From assembly GCA_003353825.1 (NCBI GenBank), contig PIVW01000313.1, positions 1-6,897 of the forward strand: 6,897 nucleotides of DNA. The letters are read 5' to 3'. The DNA is from Chloroflexota bacterium (GTDB lineage Bacteria; Chloroflexota; Anaerolineae; J102). Of this stretch, positions 124 to 5,820 are shown piece after piece. Numbering within the stretch: the stretch's first letter is position 1; each line of letters starts with the position of its first letter. Position numbers and translations under genes: made by a program. The notes beneath the pieces are model-generated. The model searched no databases. It worked only from the letters and a program-made list of their open reading frames with translations, and was not told the origin of the DNA.

Positions 124-1332
124 TTAAGGCTTCAACTCCATCAGCACTTCAGCGATGGCTTCGACCACGTGGGCCAGATCGTCGTCGCTGATGGTGAGTG
201 GGGGGAGTAGGCGCAGAACGGTAGGGCCGGCAGGTAGGGCCAGGATACCGCCTGCTTGCAATGCCTTGAGGACGGGGGTGACTTTGATGCGCAGATCAAG
301 TCCGACCATGAACCCTCGCCCCCTCACCTCGCGAATCAGGGGGGAATCGATGCTCCGCAACTGTTCTTGCAGCATCGCGCCCCGTTGAGCCGTGCGTTCG
401 ATCAACTGCTCTTCTTCAATCACATCGAGAGTAGCCAATGCGGTGGCGCAGGCCAGAGGGTTACCACCGAATGTGCTGCCGTGACTACCCTTGGGTAGTG
501 CATTCACGCGCGGGCCGATGAGACAGGCGCCGATGGGATAGCCACCTCCCAAAGCTTTGGCGATGGGCATGAGATCGGGGGTCACACCATAGTGCTGACA
601 CGCCCACCAGCGGCCTGTGCGGCCCACACCGGTTTGCACTTCGTCGAGGATGAGCAGGGCCGCGCGCTCATGACACAGTCGCTCGGCCCCTTGCAGGAAG
701 TCAGGATCGGCCGAGACCAAACCACCTTCCCCCTGGATAACCTCGAGGAGTACAGCAGCCGTACGGTCGTCGATAACCGCGTCCAATGCGGCTAAGTCAT
801 TATAGAGAACATGACTGAAGTCAGGTACAAGGGGCTCGACCGGACGGCGATATTGGGGTCGCCAGGTGGCGCTGAGCGAGCCGAAAGTGCGGCCATGAAA
901 CCCCATCCTTGCGGCGATGATGCCCGTCCTCCCTGTGCTGATCCGGGCGAACTTGAGCGCTGCCTCGACCGCCTCTGTGCCCGAGTTGCAGAGGAACGCT
1001 CGATCCATACCTGCAGGACTGATTTCGGCCAGTCGGGCCAACAGGCGAGCACGCTGGTCATTGTAGAGGCTGTCCGGGCAAAGCATCAATCGACCCGATT
1101 GCTCGCTGATAGCGGCCACAACCTGGGGATGACTATGCCCAATGCTGGCAGCGCCATGCCCGCCGATGCAATCGATGTAGCGGTTGCCGTTTGCATCCCA
1201 AAGCCAGGCGCCCTGTCCTCGCACAATGGTCAGGGGTCGTTTGCCTGTCACCCCCGCCGAGTGGGCGGTTTCGAGATCGATGATTTCAGTTGCAGTCAAA
1301 GTGGTGGGGTCAGCTACTGGAATGGTGTACAT
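124..1332 (-). CDS. lysJ: LysJ: [LysW]-aminoadipate semialdehyde aminotransferase (ArgD-like class III PLP aminotransferase)
   Basis: The 402-residue product has the full layout of a class III (acetylornithine/ornithine-type) PLP aminotransferase. Visible motifs are the phosphate-binding NSGTEA at 116-121, the aromatic/His pair FH at 145-146 that stacks on the cofactor, the LILDEVQTG strand with Asp230 for the pyridine nitrogen, and AKALGGG with Lys259 as the Schiff-base lysine. In the LysW pathway this enzyme transfers the amino group of glutamate to LysW-gamma-aminoadipate semialdehyde, giving LysW-gamma-lysine. The sequence alone does not separate LysJ from ArgD; the call rests on its position as last gene after lysW-X-Y-Z. 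It may also serve arginine synthesis, since such enzymes are often bifunctional (family knowledge). The ATG at 1332 gives a normal N-terminus, but no good Shine-Dalgarno precedes it. A 184-nt gap with heptamer repeats separates it from lysZ. Confidence 0.9.
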   Translation of the reverse strand: MYTIPVADPTTLTATEIIDLETAHSAGVTGKRPLTIVRGQGAWLWDANGNRYIDCIGGHGAASIGHSHPQVVAAISEQSGRLMLCPDSLYNDQRARLLARLAEISPAGMDRAFLCNSGTEAVEAALKFARISTGRTGIIAARMGFHGRTFGSLSATWRPQYRRPVEPLVPDFSHVLYNDLAALDAVIDDRTAAVLLEVIQGEGGLVSADPDFLQGAERLCHERAALLILDEVQTGVGRTGRWWACQHYGVTPDLMPIAKALGGGYPIGACLIGPRVNALPKGSHGSTFGGNPLACATALATLDVIEEEQLIERTAQRGAMLQEQLRSIDSPLIREVRGRGFMVGLDLRIKVTPVLKALQAGGILALPAGPTVLRLLPPLTISDDDLAHVVEAIAEVLMELKP

Positions 1333-1516: not shown

Positions 1517-2332
1517 TTATGAACGTTCAAGAACTGTGCCCTGACCTGCCAAACCATCGCCTACAGGTTCGGCATGGCGAGCATCGGCGAGGATGACCTG
1601 AGTCACTCCGCCCTCTAGTGCCTCTTGTGCAGCCAGGATTTTCCGTTTCATACGACCTTCTGCCATCGCCATCGCTTTATCAATCTCTGACAAGGTCAGG
1701 CGTTGCACGAGGCTTGTTTCGTCGGGAAAATCAGATAGCAAGCCGGGCACATTGGCGAGGATGATGAGGTTGTTCGCATGTACGCTGGCAGCCAACATCG
1801 CCGCAGCCCGGTCACCGTCCACGTTGAGGGGTTCCGAGTCACTGCCAATGGCCAGGGGTGCGATCACCGGCGTATAACCGGCATCGATTAACAAATTCAG
1901 CAAGCCAGCATTGGCCCCGGTCAGCTTTCCGGTATAGTCATCACGGATTATGCGCTGTCTTCCCTTCTCAACTGCCCTGATCGCCCTTTTCCTTTGCGCT
2001 TGCAGCAAACGGCCATCCAAGCCGCTCAAGCCGATGGCATTGACCCCGCGACGCTGTAATCGCCCCACCAGGTCTTTGTTTACCTGACCGGCTGCCGCCG
2101 CCACATACATTTCCAGGGTGGCCGGGTCGGTGTAGCGACTGCTATGTCCACTGGGGGAGGTGATCATACGCACAGGTACACCCGCACGCTCTGCCAGGGC
2201 AGTCGCCGCGGCGGAGGCGCCGTGCACCAGTATGATAGACTGACCCTGGTCGACAAGCACAGCGACATCATCGCACAAGGCATCGAGATCGGCTCCTTCG
2301 GAACCACTGATTTTAATAACAATTGGATTCAT
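1517..2332 (-). CDS. lysZ: LysZ: [LysW]-aminoadipate 6-kinase (amino acid kinase, ArgB-like)
   Basis: The 271-residue protein is an amino acid kinase fold enzyme. It phosphorylates the delta-carboxyl of aminoadipate attached to LysW, using ATP. The N-terminal strand VIKISGSEG (5-13) with Lys7 is the phosphate-binding start of the fold, and HGAS at 37-40 is the second glycine-containing loop. YTDPATLEMY (67-76) and GLSGLDG (101-107) are the blocks I associate with LysZ rather than ordinary N-acetylglutamate kinases. NVDGDRAAA (170-178) and GRMKRK (226-231) supply conserved nucleotide and catalytic residues of the family. The length is normal. The ATG at 2332 starts directly at the first beta-strand, so it is a firm choice even though no Shine-Dalgarno is visible. 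The upstream 126-nt gap to lysY consists almost wholly of tandem repeats. Confidence 0.93.
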   Translation of the reverse strand: MNPIVIKISGSEGADLDALCDDVAVLVDQGQSIILVHGASAAATALAERAGVPVRMITSPSGHSSRYTDPATLEMYVAAAAGQVNKDLVGRLQRRGVNAIGLSGLDGRLLQAQRKRAIRAVEKGRQRIIRDDYTGKLTGANAGLLNLLIDAGYTPVIAPLAIGSDSEPLNVDGDRAAAMLAASVHANNLIILANVPGLLSDFPDETSLVQRLTLSEIDKAMAMAEGRMKRKILAAQEALEGGVTQVILADARHAEPVGDGLAGQGTVLERS

Positions 2333-2341
2333 TTTAATTTA

Positions 2342-2400
2342 GTCGCGTGGTCGCGTGGTCGCGTGGTCGCGTGGTCGTTTGGTCGTTTGGTCGCGTGGTC
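2342..2400. repeat. Octamer tandem repeat, seven units plus partial, lysY-lysZ spacer
   Basis: Seven contiguous 8-bp units run from 2342 to 2397: gtcgcgtg four times, gtcgtttg twice, then gtcgcgtg once more, followed by a partial gtc. The pattern of identical neighbours and a block of two variant units suggests duplication of adjacent units. The array begins 10 bp upstream of the lysZ start codon on the transcribed strand. Confidence 0.95.
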
Positions 2401-2419: not shown

Positions 2420-2461
2420 GCCATTTGCCATTTGCGTTTTGCCTTTTAACTTTTGATTTTA
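2420..2461. repeat. Heptamer tandem repeat, six units, overlapping the lysY stop codon
   Basis: Six 7-bp units read gccattt, gccattt, gcgtttt, gcctttt, aactttt, gatttta. The period is exact and the sequence drifts from unit to unit. The last unit includes the lysY stop codon (2459-2461). It sits only 20 bp from the octamer array 2342-2400, so two arrays of different period and composition share one 126-nt spacer. Confidence 0.75.
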
Positions 2462-3517
2462 AATGGGATGCAATCCGGTAAAACCAAGGCCAGTCGTCTC
2501 ATCCCAACTGTGCATCAAATTGAGGCATTGCACGGCTGAACCGGCCGCGCCTTTACCCAGGTTATCGATAGCACAAATCGAGACCAGGCGGCCGTTAGTT
2601 TGATCCAGGCTCCAGCCGATATCGGCCAGATTGGTTCCGGCCACCAGTTTTGGTTCCGGATGCCGGTAAATACCCGAGCGTTCGTGCACGATGCGGACAA
2701 AGGGCCGGTCTTTGACAAAACGCCGGTACGCCCGCCACAGATCACGTTCGCTGGTTCCTGGCTGTGCCCAGGTATGGACAGTCGCCAGCGCTCCTCGCAC
2801 CAATTCGATGGAAGTGACCGAGAGGTGGATGTCGTCACGCCCCAAAGCTTGGTGTACTTCCGCTTCATGGCGGTGGCCGGTGGGCGCGAAACTGCGCACG
2901 GCGTGGCTACGCTCCGGGTGGTGAGAGGCGGCATTGGCGCTGGCCCCCCCCTCCGAGGAACCGACTTTGAGATCGACAAGGATGGGTCGATCATCACGCA
3001 AAAGACCAGCCTGGACCAAGGGCAACAATGCCAGGTTGCTGGCAGTAGCGTTACAACCCACACCACTGACATAGTCGGCGCCCCTGATCTGGTCTCGGTA
3101 GCGCTCCGGCAGGCCGTAGACAAAACGGTCGAGCCAGGATGGCGCCGCGTGCGCATGCCCGTAGCGGGCCTCGTACACGGCCGCATCTCGCAAACGGAAA
3201 TCAGCCGAGAGATCGATAAGGCGTGGCGCTAAATCAGAAAAATGCTCGATCTGACCTTGTACCTGCCCGTGGGGCAATGCCAAGAGAAGCACATCACAGG
3301 ATTCCAGCTCTTCGAGTGTGGTAAATCGCAGGGCAGGCCGGCCAGCCCAAGGGCGCAGGTTCGGATGCACGCTATGCACAAACTTACCGGCGTTACGCTG
3401 CGAGGTCACCTGGGTAACTTCGACACAGGGATGATCGATGAGGATGCGAAGCAGTTCACCGCCGCCGTAGCCGGAGCCCCCGGCAATGGCAACACGAAGG
3501 GGAGTATCAGAAGACAT
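2459..3517 (-). CDS. lysY: LysY: [LysW]-aminoadipyl-phosphate reductase (ArgC-like)
   Basis: The 352-residue product belongs to the N-acetyl-gamma-glutamyl-phosphate reductase family. It reduces the acyl-phosphate made by LysZ to LysW-bound aminoadipate semialdehyde with NADPH. The Rossmann start RVAIAGGSGYGGGELLRIL (8-26) binds the nucleotide. SGVGCNATA (151-159) holds the catalytic cysteine, Cys155, and PTGHRHEAEV (212-221) carries the family histidines. The C-terminal CAIDNLGKGAAGSAVQ block (315-330) is also standard. I chose the ATG at 3517 because it falls right before the first beta-strand. An upstream TTG at 3553 would add 12 residues without family support and would start inside a repeat array. 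No Shine-Dalgarno is visible. Gaps on both sides contain tandem repeats. Confidence 0.93.
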   Translation of the reverse strand: MSSDTPLRVAIAGGSGYGGGELLRILIDHPCVEVTQVTSQRNAGKFVHSVHPNLRPWAGRPALRFTTLEELESCDVLLLALPHGQVQGQIEHFSDLAPRLIDLSADFRLRDAAVYEARYGHAHAAPSWLDRFVYGLPERYRDQIRGADYVSGVGCNATASNLALLPLVQAGLLRDDRPILVDLKVGSSEGGASANAASHHPERSHAVRSFAPTGHRHEAEVHQALGRDDIHLSVTSIELVRGALATVHTWAQPGTSERDLWRAYRRFVKDRPFVRIVHERSGIYRHPEPKLVAGTNLADIGWSLDQTNGRLVSICAIDNLGKGAAGSAVQCLNLMHSWDETTGLGFTGLHPI

Positions 3518-3552
3518 GAGTTTGAAAAAGGAGTGATGAGAAAGTGGGTGCA

Positions 3553-3594
3553 AGAATCAAGATTGAAGATTGAAGACTAAAGATTGAAGATTAT
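3553..3594. repeat. Heptamer tandem repeat (agattga type), lysX-lysY spacer, arm 1
   Basis: Six 7-bp units read agaatca, agattga, agattga, agactaa, agattga, agattat. The unit is a rotation of the reverse complement of the aatcttc unit in the second array at 3614-3676, so the two arrays face each other as imperfect inverted repeats around a short spacer (3595-3613). Confidence 0.85.
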
Positions 3595-3613
3595 GACCCC
3601 TGCCTTGCCGTAT

Positions 3614-3676
3614 GTGATTCAATCATTAATCTTGAATCATCGATCATTAATCCTGAATCTTCAGTCTTCAATTTTT
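3614..3676. repeat. Heptamer tandem repeat (aatcttc type), lysX-lysY spacer, arm 2
   Basis: About nine 7-bp units in one register read gtgattc, aatcatt, aatcttg, aatcatc, gatcatt, aatcctg, aatcttc, agtcttc, aattttt. The array ends at the lysX stop codon (3676-3678). Part of it (3656-3672) pairs with 3570-3586 with one mismatch in 17, giving a potential intercistronic hairpin. Positions 3654-3670 recur exactly at 1455-1471. Confidence 0.8.
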
Positions 3677-4566
3677 CAGGTCCGAACCGGTACCTGCCAG
3701 GTCAGTGGTACGCGGGCATTAGCGACATCGAGCAGGTATTGAGCCACACAGGCGGGGATATCGACACCGGTTGGAGCGATGCTGTTGCGGAATTCCATGG
3801 TGTGGTTGATCTCATTCACCAACAGACCCCGACTATTGTCTTCAAAAAGATCGATGGCGAGAACGCCGCCTCCCACCGCTTGTGCAGCCGACCGGCACAG
3901 TGCCTCGATCTCAGGCGTTACGGGACAATTGCTGGCCTCGCCGCCACGCGCCGTATTGGTAATCCAATGCGAGGACTGGCGGTAAATGGCGGCAATACAC
4001 TGGTCACCCACCACAAAGGCACGGATATCCCGCCCAGGTTTGTCGATAAAATCCTGGATGTAGAAAATGCTGTGCTGGTAGGAACCAAGGGTGGTTTTGT
4101 GCTCGATGATGGCTTCAGCAGCATCACGGTCATTGATACGTGCCAGCAAGCGACCCCATGATCCCACCACTGGTTTGAGCACCACCGGATAGCCCAATTC
4201 TTCCATCGCGGCCAGGGCACTGCCGGCGTCGAAGGCAACGCGCCAATTGGGTTGGGGTACGCCGGCGGCGTCCAGGGCGGTACCGGTGAGAATTTTGTCG
4301 GCGCAGATATTAGCCGTGTGATAGCTGTTGACGGTGGGGACGCCATCCGCCTCCAACATGTGCAGAGCATACAAGCCGCGTGAGGTGCTCACCGAGCGTT
4401 CGAGCACTACATCCACCGCCTGGTCGATGCCCGGCCGCTCGCCGCGGAATATCAGATCATTGTCACGCAACATCACCACTTCGGCGCCCGCGTTTTTCAG
4501 GGCATTGACCAGCAATTTCTCTTCGGCGCGAATGCGTCCGTAAAGGAAACCCACGCGAGTGGTCAT
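3676..4566 (-). CDS. lysX: LysX: alpha-aminoadipate--LysW ligase (ATP-grasp, RimK-like)
   Basis: From the ATG at 4566 the protein has 296 residues, typical for LysX. It joins the alpha-amino group of aminoadipate to the gamma-carboxyl of the C-terminal glutamate of LysW, using ATP. The N-terminus [16 protein letters not shown] (4-19) is characteristic of LysX. The ATP-grasp core shows [13 protein letters not shown] (128-140) with the ATP-binding Lys131, [17 protein letters not shown] (171-187), TNTARGGEA (203-211), and metal-ligand region [12 protein letters not shown] (248-259). Its start overlaps the lysW stop in an ATGA tetranucleotide, and an AGGAGG on the minus strand (4577-4582) lies 10 nt upstream inside lysW. 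Tight coupling of acceptor protein and ligase is thus expected. A start nine bases further up is possible but unnecessary. Whether it also accepts glutamate (ArgX activity, arginine route) cannot be read by eye. Confidence 0.95.
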
Positions 4567-4733
4567 TCTCCCCAATCCTCCTCAACCTCTGGCGCCAGGT
4601 CCAGCTCGAGCGGCTCAAGCGAGATAACTTCGAGTTCTGAGCCGCAATCAGGGCACGGCACGATCTCACCCAACATCGGATCATTAAGGGTGAGGTCACC
4701 TTCACATTCGGGACAAGTTACTTGCTGCGACAT
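4563..4733 (-). CDS. lysW: LysW: amino-group carrier protein for lysine biosynthesis
   Basis: This 56-residue acidic protein is the carrier on which lysine is built. Two zinc-ribbon knuckles, CPEC (Cys7, Cys10) and CPDC (Cys27, Cys30), stand in the N-terminal half. The tail ends in EDWGE, the hallmark C-terminus whose final glutamate is the attachment point for aminoadipate. The middle and tail are rich in Glu/Asp, which the partner enzymes recognise through basic surfaces (family knowledge). The ATG at 4733 is set by an AGGAG at 4742-4746. The frame stays open upstream to a GTG at 4838, but that extension is outside the family and is rejected. The gene follows a terminator-bearing leader and overlaps lysX by four bases. 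Confidence 0.97.
4577..4582 (-). promoter_or_regulatory. Shine-Dalgarno of lysX inside the lysW coding end
   Basis: On the minus strand AGGAGG lies 10 nt before the lysX ATG, inside the codons for the Glu-Asp of the conserved EDWGE tail, so the essential LysW C-terminus and the lysX ribosome site share the same bases. It supports the ATG at 4566. Confidence 0.7.
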
Positions 4734-4823: not shown

Positions 4824-4851
4824 CGCACTACGCAACACGCAACACGTACAA
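4824..4851. repeat. Heptamer tandem repeat, four units, lysW leader
   Basis: Four 7-bp units read cgcacta, cgcaaca, cgcaaca, cgtacaa. The array starts immediately after the T-run of the leader terminator on the transcribed strand, about 90 nt before the lysW start. Confidence 0.7.
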
Positions 4852-4883
4852 AAAAACCTCTCCTGCCGGACGGGCGAGAGAGG
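4850..4883 (-). terminator. Intrinsic terminator (attenuator) in the lysW leader
   Basis: On the minus strand, CCTCTC (4883-4878) pairs with GAGAGG (4862-4857), and an inner GCC/GGC (4875-4873 with 4867-4865) closes a five-base loop. Seven T residues (4856-4850) follow directly. It lies 117 nt before lysW and after a complete short ORF, so it is a premature terminator of the operon leader rather than the end of a gene. Its 3' arm can alternatively pair with an upstream segment (see the antiterminator entry). Confidence 0.8.
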
Positions 4884-4961
4884 GCTGAGAGCACGGCGGT
4901 GTGCGCTAGCGACCTATCCTGGGCCGATGTCCGGCAGGATGGGGTGGGTCTTCTTAGCGCA
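4861..4961 (-). promoter_or_regulatory. Competing antiterminator and protector structures of the lysW leader RNA
   Basis: Three pairings are visible. (1) TCCTGCCGGAC at 4939-4929 is perfectly complementary over 11 bases to 4871-4861, which includes the loop and 3' arm of the terminator; forming it prevents termination. (2) The same upstream segment can instead fold locally: 4940-4932 pairs with 4926-4916 (nine pairs, two-base bulge, loop GACAT). (3) TGCGCTA at 4961-4955 pairs with TAGCGCA at 4908-4902; this helix encloses the local hairpin and its first strand lies within the Lys-codon block of the leader ORF. A ribosome paused on those codons would block (3), leave 4939-4929 free and favour (1). 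That order of events is inference; the complementarities are seen directly. Confidence 0.65.
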
Positions 4962-5021
4962 TTTCTTGGCAATTAGGGTGATGGGCTGATTAGATAATTG
5001 GAGATTGGGTCGTGGATTCAT
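4914..5021 (-). CDS. Putative lysine leader peptide (35 codons) of the lysW operon
   Basis: An ATG at 5021 opens a 35-codon frame ending in TAG at 4916-4914. Residues 18-25 read AKKCAKKT: four lysine codons (AAG AAA and AAG AAG) in a stretch of six. The stop codon lies at the foot of the local hairpin 4940-4916, and the Lys codons lie 10-27 nt before the segment that can form the antiterminator. This is the layout of a translation-controlled attenuator that senses charged tRNA-Lys. Leader-peptide attenuation has been reported, from memory, for the lysine cluster of Thermus thermophilus, which uses the same pathway. Weak points are the lack of a Shine-Dalgarno before the ATG and faint 7-base periodicity in the first half of the frame (about 4987-5028), so the exact start is uncertain. 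No convincing promoter lies between the exporter stop and this ORF. Confidence 0.6.
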   Translation of the reverse strand: MNPRPNLQLSNQPITLIAKKCAKKTHPILPDIGPG

Positions 5022-5146: not shown

Positions 5147-5773
5147 TCAGCGCACCAGACCAACAACTGAGACCAGGGCGATGGCGCCGAATGCGATGAT
5201 GATAACACCGGAGAGGTAGTTGACCCAGCGCATGCGCTCAGGTGTAAAGTGGCGGCGGAAGATGCCGACACCGGTGCTGAGGGTGACCCACCAGAGGGCA
5301 GAGCCGAGGAAAACACCCAGAACCAGGACAACGGCGGCGAAGGTGCTGCCAGCAGTGCTCATCAGGCCCAACCCGGCGAATACCGCAGCAAATGAGATAA
5401 TCGTTATAGGGTTGGTGATGGTGAGCACGAAGGTCGAGGCATAATCACTGGCGAGATTGTTGCTATCGGCTTCAGCGCCTTCGGCAGTGGGGCGGGACAG
5501 TAGGGTGCGTACGCCAAGATACAACAAAAAAGCCCCTCCCGCCAAACGTAATCCCACCTGCCAGTCGAGCAGCAATCCGGACAAGGCGGTCAGGCCGAAG
5601 GCGGCGATGCTGCCGTATACAGCATCTGCGCTGGCTGCTCCCAGACTCGAAACCAGCCCGGACGCCCGACCCACCGCCAGCGTGCGACGAATACAGAGTA
5701 CAGCAATGGGGCCGACGGGTGCAGCGATGCTGAAGCCAAGTATCAGGCCTTGGAAAAAGAGGAGGGGGTTCAT
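5147..5773 (-). CDS. LysE/RhtB-family amino acid exporter
   Basis: The 208-residue product is an integral membrane protein with about six hydrophobic segments (roughly 5-25, 38-65, 74-92, 117-138, 144-166, 185-205). The family signature is present: LGFSIAAPVGP (12-22) in the first helix, the following CIRRTLAVG loop (27-35), GAASAD (45-50) at helix 2, and TITNPITIISF (118-128). Members export small amino acids such as lysine, arginine, threonine or homoserine by proton exchange. The substrate cannot be read from the sequence. Its place directly upstream of, and co-oriented with, a lysine operon makes lysine (or arginine) a reasonable guess. It lies 125 nt before the lysW leader ORF and could be cotranscribed with it. 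The ATG at 5773 starts the signature helix; no Shine-Dalgarno is seen. Its own leader (5908-6118) carries a promoter, a short ORF and a terminator. Confidence 0.88.
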   Translation of the reverse strand: MNPLLFFQGLILGFSIAAPVGPIAVLCIRRTLAVGRASGLVSSLGAASADAVYGSIAAFGLTALSGLLLDWQVGLRLAGGAFLLYLGVRTLLSRPTAEGAEADSNNLASDYASTFVLTITNPITIISFAAVFAGLGLMSTAGSTFAAVVLVLGVFLGSALWWVTLSTGVGIFRRHFTPERMRWVNYLSGVIIIAFGAIALVSVVGLVR

Positions 5774-5775
5774 GG

Positions 5776-5820
5776 GTGACAGGTGTTAAAGTGTCAAAGT
5801 GTCAGGTGTCAGGTGTCAGG
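5776..5820. repeat. Heptamer tandem repeat, upstream of the LysE-family gene
   Basis: Three perfect copies of gtgtcag (5799-5819) are preceded by degenerate units gtgtcaa (5791), gtgttaa (5783) and gtgacag (5776), some with one extra a. The array lies 2 bp upstream of the exporter start codon, so it fills the place where a ribosome binding site would be. Confidence 0.85.

Follow-up and report, generated by a model that had tools for sequence, protein, structure and literature searches.

Which signal governs a lysWXYZJ operon in the uncultured Chloroflexota, lysine or arginine, and is it read by the RNA ahead of the first gene? The question is raised by the window, the 6,897-nucleotide stretch of DNA analysed here from an uncultured Chloroflexota-like bacterium, which carries the operon on its minus strand (Table 1). 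The lysX start codon (ATG at 4566) overlaps the lysW stop, as read from the sequence. The lysJ-type aminotransferase, which stays under the LysJ cut-off, passes that of the argD subfamily (436.7 bits, cut-off 410.05).

A gene for a LysE-type exporter lies further upstream. An upstream lysE on the same strand was found in one other locus (L119, 61% identity) and in none of the rest of the 201 sequences searched, many of which are short (e.g., L001, with 534 nt upstream of lysW). Coupling of the leader with the exporter was considered and dropped on this distribution. Short direct repeats, noted by inspection only, occur in intergenic gaps of the window (2341-2400, 5778-5820, 1420-1480, and 3550-3675), with GGTCGCGT, GTGTCA, and TTGAAGATT-like runs.

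Table 1. Operon genes and leader elements in the window, in the direction of transcription
Feature	Position	Strand	Remarks
LysE-type exporter, further upstream of operon	5147-5773	- (operon's strand)	
Leader ORF, 35 codons, MNPRPNLQLSNQPITLIAKKCAKKTHPILPDIGPG	4914..5021 (5021-4914)	-	two Lys-Lys pairs
First Lys-Lys pair, AAG AAA	4962..4967	-	
H1 outer 5' arm TGCGCTA	4955..4961	-	partner 4908-4902; swap test 17/5000
Second Lys-Lys pair, AAG AAG	4950..4955	-	invariant in 13/13 clade units
H1 inner 5' arm GACC	4947..4950	-	partner 4914-4911
H2 local hairpin	4916..4940	-	able to sequester antiterminator strand
H3 antiterminator strand TCCTGCCGGAC	4929..4939	-	bases common to H2 5' arm
Leader stop TAG	4916-4914	-	at end of H2
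H1 inner 3' arm GGTC	4911..4914	-	
H1 outer 3' arm TAGCGCA	4902..4908	-	
H4 intrinsic terminator hairpin	4857..4883	-	swap test 1/5000
H3 partner GTCCGGCAGGA	4861..4871	-	loop and upper 3' arm of terminator
Seven-T tract of terminator	4850..4856	-	
lysW, amino-group carrier protein, C-terminus EDWGE	4563..4733	-	TIGR01206 72.6 bits, cut-off 53.2; start codon read from sequence
lysX, LysW-aminoadipate ligase	3676..4566	-	TIGR02144 347.6 bits, cut-off 275.6 (scanned from 4575)
lysY/argC-type reductase	2459..3553	-	TIGR01850 345.9 bits, cut-off 233.6
lysZ, [LysW]-aminoadipate kinase	1517..2332	-	NF010659 356 bits, cut-off 223
lysJ-type aminotransferase	124..1332	-	top match NF042418 LysJ 460.3 bits, under cut-off 700

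Leader ORF and exclusive helices ahead of lysW

A sequence-only reading of this locus had described a 35-codon ORF with two Lys-Lys (KK) pairs, a perfect 11-base antiterminator partner, a competing local hairpin over the antiterminator strand, a 7-bp helix starting in the Lys-codon block, and a terminator with seven T residues before lysW. Each of these parts is present (Table 1). The 7-bp helix (outer H1) shares one base with the second KK pair and continues into a 4-bp inner extension that was absent from that description. The antiterminator (H3) and the terminator are mutually exclusive, since the H3 partner shares bases with the latter's loop and 3' arm. The terminator (4883-4850) lies between the leader ORF and the first structural gene, 123 nt before lysW, and it was not picked up by a simple terminator scan because its 7-bp arms enclose 13 nt (including an inner 3-bp stem) and the loop limit was 8.

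The stretch 4845-4950 folds at -46.0 kcal/mol, compared with -30.6 (sd 3.3) for shuffled sequences (z -4.7; 0 of 200 shuffles as stable), and a longer stretch gives z -3.8. No Shine-Dalgarno sequence was seen before the leader start in the window, and no promoter is evident just upstream of it. An Rfam search returned no family match up to E = 5, the T-box and lysine riboswitch models included.

Recurrence and conservation upstream of other lysW genes

Relatives were collected by a LysX search of genome contigs, from which the best 80 of 275 matches were kept, mostly records named Chloroflexota or Anaerolineae, and from a class sample in which 304 of 396 genomes have a LysW match. Among these best 80 of 275 matches the nearest LysX is 99% identical (L001) and the next 83% (L029, Caldilineae bacterium). 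In L001 the leader frame is kept despite substitutions and flanking indels. This contig is filed under a Halieaceae bacterium MAG and is probably wrongly binned.

Of 201 sequences examined for the region upstream of lysW (the window and 200 loci), 197 yielded a lysW gene, and removal of copies reduced these to 188. A terminator-like site lies within 400 nt upstream of lysW in 111 of these 188 regions, in a mixed sample (80 loci picked by LysX similarity, class-sample loci mostly best-scoring) whose fractions are not class-wide frequencies. Leaving out the window and a misparsed locus (L035), we compared 159 lysW terminators in 110 loci, 140 of them with a qualifying ORF, with a background of 376 terminators from other parts of these loci, of which 158 have an ORF. 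KK occurs among the last 30 residues of a short ORF before 91 of 159 lysW terminators and 15 of 376 background terminators, some of the lysW terminators sharing one ORF (e.g., in L024 and L053). When at least four Lys are also required, the counts are 73/159 and 5/376, and two of those five background cases are the homocitrate synthase leaders of L045 and L049. Among the 20 residues, Lys is the most frequently doubled at lysW terminators and Arg in the background; Arg pairs with at least four Arg are not enriched by terminator count (16/159 vs 36/376).

A stricter call yields 91 KK units in 64 of the 188 regions. The remaining 124 have no KK unit, and KK leaders are not universal. Across lysW loci, the leader stop falls mostly 50-80 nt before the terminator end, and what recurs outside the window clade is Lys codons plus, in many proximal units, an SG-stop ending (CTGGATAG or CTGGTTAG). 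Together with the fold stability against shuffles, this recurrence upstream of other lysW genes confirms that the leader architecture is beyond chance.

Two further sequence features were seen in these regions. ORFs before the lysW terminators of L129, L155, L158, L170, and L177 share a (L)WFKPP- or LFKPF-like peptide without Lys clusters. L006, L007, and L010 have a promoter-like TTGACG and a -10 hexamer that stops 6-7 nt short of the leader ATG, which suggests a leaderless leader peptide in these three loci. Leaderless starts were rejected as a general rule, since only 5 of 64 first units show the arrangement.

Many loci carry attenuator-like units in series. Two distinct KK units, more than 100 nt apart and with different ORFs, are present in 26 of the 64 loci with a KK unit, and each serial leader ORF upstream of lysW has its own terminator (loci including L005, L009, L016-L019, L024, L026-L032, L112, and L120). 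The window has one unit; L005, L009, L029, L112, and L120 are the window-clade members with tandem units. In 21 non-redundant distal units the antiterminator fits the 5' arm of its own terminator better than swapped ones (0/5000 permutations, kinship ignored).

The sequence-only reading had pointed to loss of the KK codons or of the helices in related genomes as evidence against it, and the nearest relatives keep both. In the alignment of 13 window-clade units, AAGAAG (the second KK pair) and a CCGG core do not vary, and every unit has a terminator. Column-wise covariation (MAFFT alignment) was set aside because the 3' side of H1 is one base out of register between subtypes. Arm-swap permutations were used instead, with 12 clade units, 5000 permutations, and kinship ignored, L001 being dropped because it nearly duplicates the window. 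On these terms the units favor their own partner in H1 (-18.8 kcal/mol for own and -16.9 for swapped arms, 17/5000) and in the terminator (-24.8 vs -20.5 kcal/mol, 1/5000). For H2 (1081/5000) and H3 (1312/5000) the test says nothing in these 12 units, as both are nearly invariant.

The antiterminator geometry had been described as unlike that of trp and his, with pairing to the 3' arm of the terminator. This holds in most of the window clade: 10 of 12 units reach -16.3 kcal/mol or better for pairing of the antiterminator strand with the terminator loop and 3' arm. L003 is an exception, with nearly no such pairing (-6.4 kcal/mol), and in L090 it is weak (-12.5). Pairing of the clade strand with the 5' arm is poor (mean -5.7 kcal/mol, 4310/5000). 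In 44 units outside the clade, the strand between the Lys codons and the stop, which in many ends in the SG-stop sequences given above, pairs best with the 5' arm (-18.2 vs -14.6 kcal/mol, 0/5000, kinship ignored). The signal for the 3' arm is weaker in these 44 units (-15.1 vs -12.8 kcal/mol, 0/5000, kinship ignored), H1 gives 8/5000 with kinship again ignored, and a pairing that is not expected, between the Lys-codon block and the 5' arm, gives no signal (3900/5000).

Lysine or arginine as the putative signal

The distribution of ArgJ was compared with the leader codons. When genomes were grouped by hand before the search, ArgJ was found in 0 of 11 with Arg-rich or mixed leaders; among 28 with Lys leaders it was over the cut-off in 21, a fragment in 1, and not found in 6, and it was present in two of three other genomes. 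An automated leader call on 100 genomes, with fragments counted as present and G001 left out for its doubtful binning, gave ArgJ in 50 of 58 with Lys leaders, 12 of 34 with Arg leaders, and 2 of 8 with neither (Lys vs Arg leaders, Fisher p = 1.5e-6, with kinship ignored and genome completeness not taken into account). Six of the 12 ArgJ-positive Arg-leader cases are KK leaders with tied Arg counts (L032, L067, L090, L104, L107, and L112). A further 61 genomes had no called leader, 39 with and 22 without ArgJ. Arg-rich leader ORFs (e.g., RRARAKR) before lysW, with no ArgJ detected in the genome, were seen in L089, L095, L124, L126, L127, L139, L154, L163, and L179. Eight of the 28 genomes with Lys leaders and one of the 11 with Arg leaders score over the cut-off for LysA, an enzyme of the diaminopimelate route; a second lysine route may therefore exist in some Lys-leader genomes.

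LysX carries Asn-Thr, presumably the published motif, in 169 of 169 loci tabulated (L145 and L173 gave no residue there), and as a lysine-versus-arginine marker this motif was discarded, being identical in all 169 and not separating the groups. To judge from these residues, its constancy would argue against LysX having simply switched to the ArgX type and would give no enzyme-level support for a change of substrate. ARGA in place of ARGG follows the motif in 9/28 R-leader, 2/6 'other', 1/82 no-leader, and 0/53 K-leader loci (the window among these 53), in a tabulation that counted KK with at least three Lys as K even with tied Arg, unlike that for ArgJ. The R-leader and 'other' loci with WITNTARGA instead of WITNTARGG are L034, L063, L089, L095, L126, L127, L139, L152, L154, L163, and L179, beside one no-leader locus.

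In seven clade genomes (G002, G004, G005, G213, G280, G055, and G243) a homocitrate synthase over the cut-off follows lysW on the same strand of the same contig, which fits lysine as the product; G002 also has ArgJ, and in G003 the synthase is on another contig than lysW. The suggestion that the operon responds to lysine rather than arginine thus gains support, both from these seven genomes and from the association of Lys leaders with ArgJ.

We also surveyed homocitrate synthase in 33 loci of ArgJ-less genomes (3 below the family cut-off; L201 and L203 with less than 200 nt upstream). A KK leader with a terminator lies within 400 nt of the synthase in 11 of the 33: L045 and L049 (both at about 9265, reverse strand; L049 is from the cultured relative Thermanaerothrix daxensis), L202, L209, L210, L212, L214, L216, L218, L219, and L226. 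In a twelfth case, L208, the leader belongs to lysW. The synthase leader of L045 and L049 is preceded by TTGACA-17-TATAAT. No KK leader was found at the lysW locus examined in these 11 genomes, several of which have more than one LysW match. Four of these genomes (G259, G262, G319, and G333) have the synthase ahead of lysW in the same orientation on one contig, and a single leader could therefore act on both genes.

A wider proposal, which in our judgment may equally well prove right or wrong, is that the Anaerolineae leader reads out the product of the LysW operon. Where ArgJ is present, Lys codons would stand at lysW; where it is missing, lysW would serve arginine (or both), its leader would be Arg-rich or mixed or absent, and the Lys leader would sit at the lysine-committed homocitrate synthase. 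Many lineages would stack two Lys attenuators, and one clade would have flipped its antiterminator to the 3' arm.

Proposed switch, its alternatives, and known attenuators

Very probably the window leader is a ribosome-mediated transcription attenuator through which the supply of charged tRNA-Lys sets the expression of lysWXYZJ. When lysine is ample, the ribosome would pass the KK codons and reach the stop codon, where its footprint would lie over the antiterminator strand; with the strand masked, the terminator would form and transcription would stop. When lysine is short, the ribosome would stall on the KK pairs and break H1, leaving the antiterminator strand free for the terminator loop and 3' arm, and with this antiterminator formed RNA polymerase would read into lysW. 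Translation of the leader ORF, ribosome stalling, tRNA-Lys as the signal, and the timing of folding are what we infer in this scheme.

Ribosome positions were modeled with partition functions, all RNA up to the leading edge of the ribosome being held unpaired. For the complete window transcript, the predicted terminator probability is 0.00 with the ribosome stalled at KK and 0.99 with the ribosome at the stop. Seven of 13 units, the window included, switch in silico on complete transcripts, and six (L120, L009, L112, L090, L003, and L002) do not switch at equilibrium. When the transcript is cut just after the H3 partner, a KK-stalled ribosome leads to H3 in 13 of 13 units and a ribosome at the stop to the terminator side in 13 of 13. 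The cut falls at a moment that the polymerase must pass, but it removes the base of the terminator 3' arm and so favors H3. On the strength of these cut-transcript models, what the units should have in common is that a ribosome at the end of the leader masks the antiterminator strand. With no ribosome on the cut transcript H3 forms in 10 of 13, and for the window RNA without a ribosome the prediction is the antiterminator fold (read-through). In these models H1 and H2 are largely in place before the H3 partner has been transcribed (paired fractions, over fixed stretches, 0.47 and 0.70). Ribosome-free read-through would depart from textbook default termination, unless early H1 and H2 hold the strand, and would count against the simple model.

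The same parts might be read as an ordinary intrinsic terminator of an upstream lysE transcript, with a fortuitous ORF. A co-oriented upstream lysE, present in the window and L119, and the lack of a visible ribosome-binding site before the window ORF agree with this, but KK ORFs are far commoner before lysW terminators than before background ones, lysE is confined to these two among the 201 sequences searched (many loci being short), and the H1 and antiterminator swap tests run against it, which leaves it very unlikely. A reading that does involve translation has the attenuator respond less to tRNA-Lys than to the nascent peptide or to ribosome traffic in general. It could draw on the KKxxPxLPDxxxG-like peptide kept in most window-clade members, yet that stretch is also the antiterminator strand, outside the clade it is Lys codons and, in many proximal units, SG-stop that recur, and Arg-rich leaders are commoner where ArgJ is missing. 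We regard it as highly unlikely.

A lysine riboswitch or T-box, that is, a ligand- or tRNA-binding RNA acting without translation, would account for the strong fold. Both families are in Rfam, and both readings were rejected for want of an Rfam match up to E = 5. Conservation is centered on Lys codons in frame with a stop that in most cases lies 50-80 nt ahead of the end of the terminator. One paper reports T-boxes in Chloroflexi (PMC3766115); even so, this explanation is extremely unlikely for the window.

Charged tRNA-Lys read by a translating ribosome would place the element in a classical group. In the enterobacterial trp, his, leu, thr, ilv, and phe attenuators, a short ORF rich in codons for the end product, exclusive helices, and a terminator before the first gene make the position of the ribosome the input. 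The short codon-rich leader ORF, the mutually exclusive helices, and the position of the terminator are the same here; the differences are the amino acid lysine, the phylum Chloroflexota, a clade antiterminator that pairs with the loop and 3' arm instead of the 5' arm, two serial units in some relatives, and the lack of a Shine-Dalgarno sequence before the window leader. Tsubouchi et al. (2005, J Biol Chem) reportedly described leader-peptide attenuation of the Thermus thermophilus lysine cluster, where Lys codons in a leader peptide are said to control an aminoadipate-type cluster, as proposed here, in another phylum. For this reason lysine as such is not claimed as new.

In passages of the paper that reports Chloroflexi T-boxes, the characterized attenuator motifs are His, Leu, Thr, and Trp in Rfam plus Ile/Val and Phe, and lysine is not among them (PMC3766115). 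A leader gene lies upstream of lysQ in Lactococcus lactis, that is, before a lysine-named gene, which is described as a permease with altered substrate specificity (PMC4833913). The leader of Salmonella mgtCBR has two short ORFs and two attenuators that read different signals, ATP and proline (PMC3641672), whereas both serial units here carry Lys codons; it was the only other tandem case found among the matches listed. The LysW/ArgW carrier pathway, the same as here, serves lysine only in Thermus, arginine only in the haloarchaeon Natrinema, and both in Sulfolobus and Thermococcus, in an account that concerns enzymes and whose available passages describe no leader (PMC10433800). Among the matches listed from open-licence PMC literature on lysine leaders, LysW leaders, and Chloroflexi attenuation, no description of a lysW leader element was found. 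The class of mechanism is textbook, and as far as the literature was searched, what appears to be new is the lineage, the 3'-arm geometry of the window clade, tandem units that share their codons, and the way leader codons track the arginine route.

These results suggest that lysine synthesis in a large bacterial class, most of it uncultured, is repeatedly controlled by leader-peptide attenuation, outside the groups in which attenuators are usually described. As the leader codons name the amino acid that matters, they would offer a test, from sequence only, of whether a LysW operon serves lysine, arginine, or both. The design rules of attenuators may become testable through serial units that repeat the same codons and through the two antiterminator geometries within one family.
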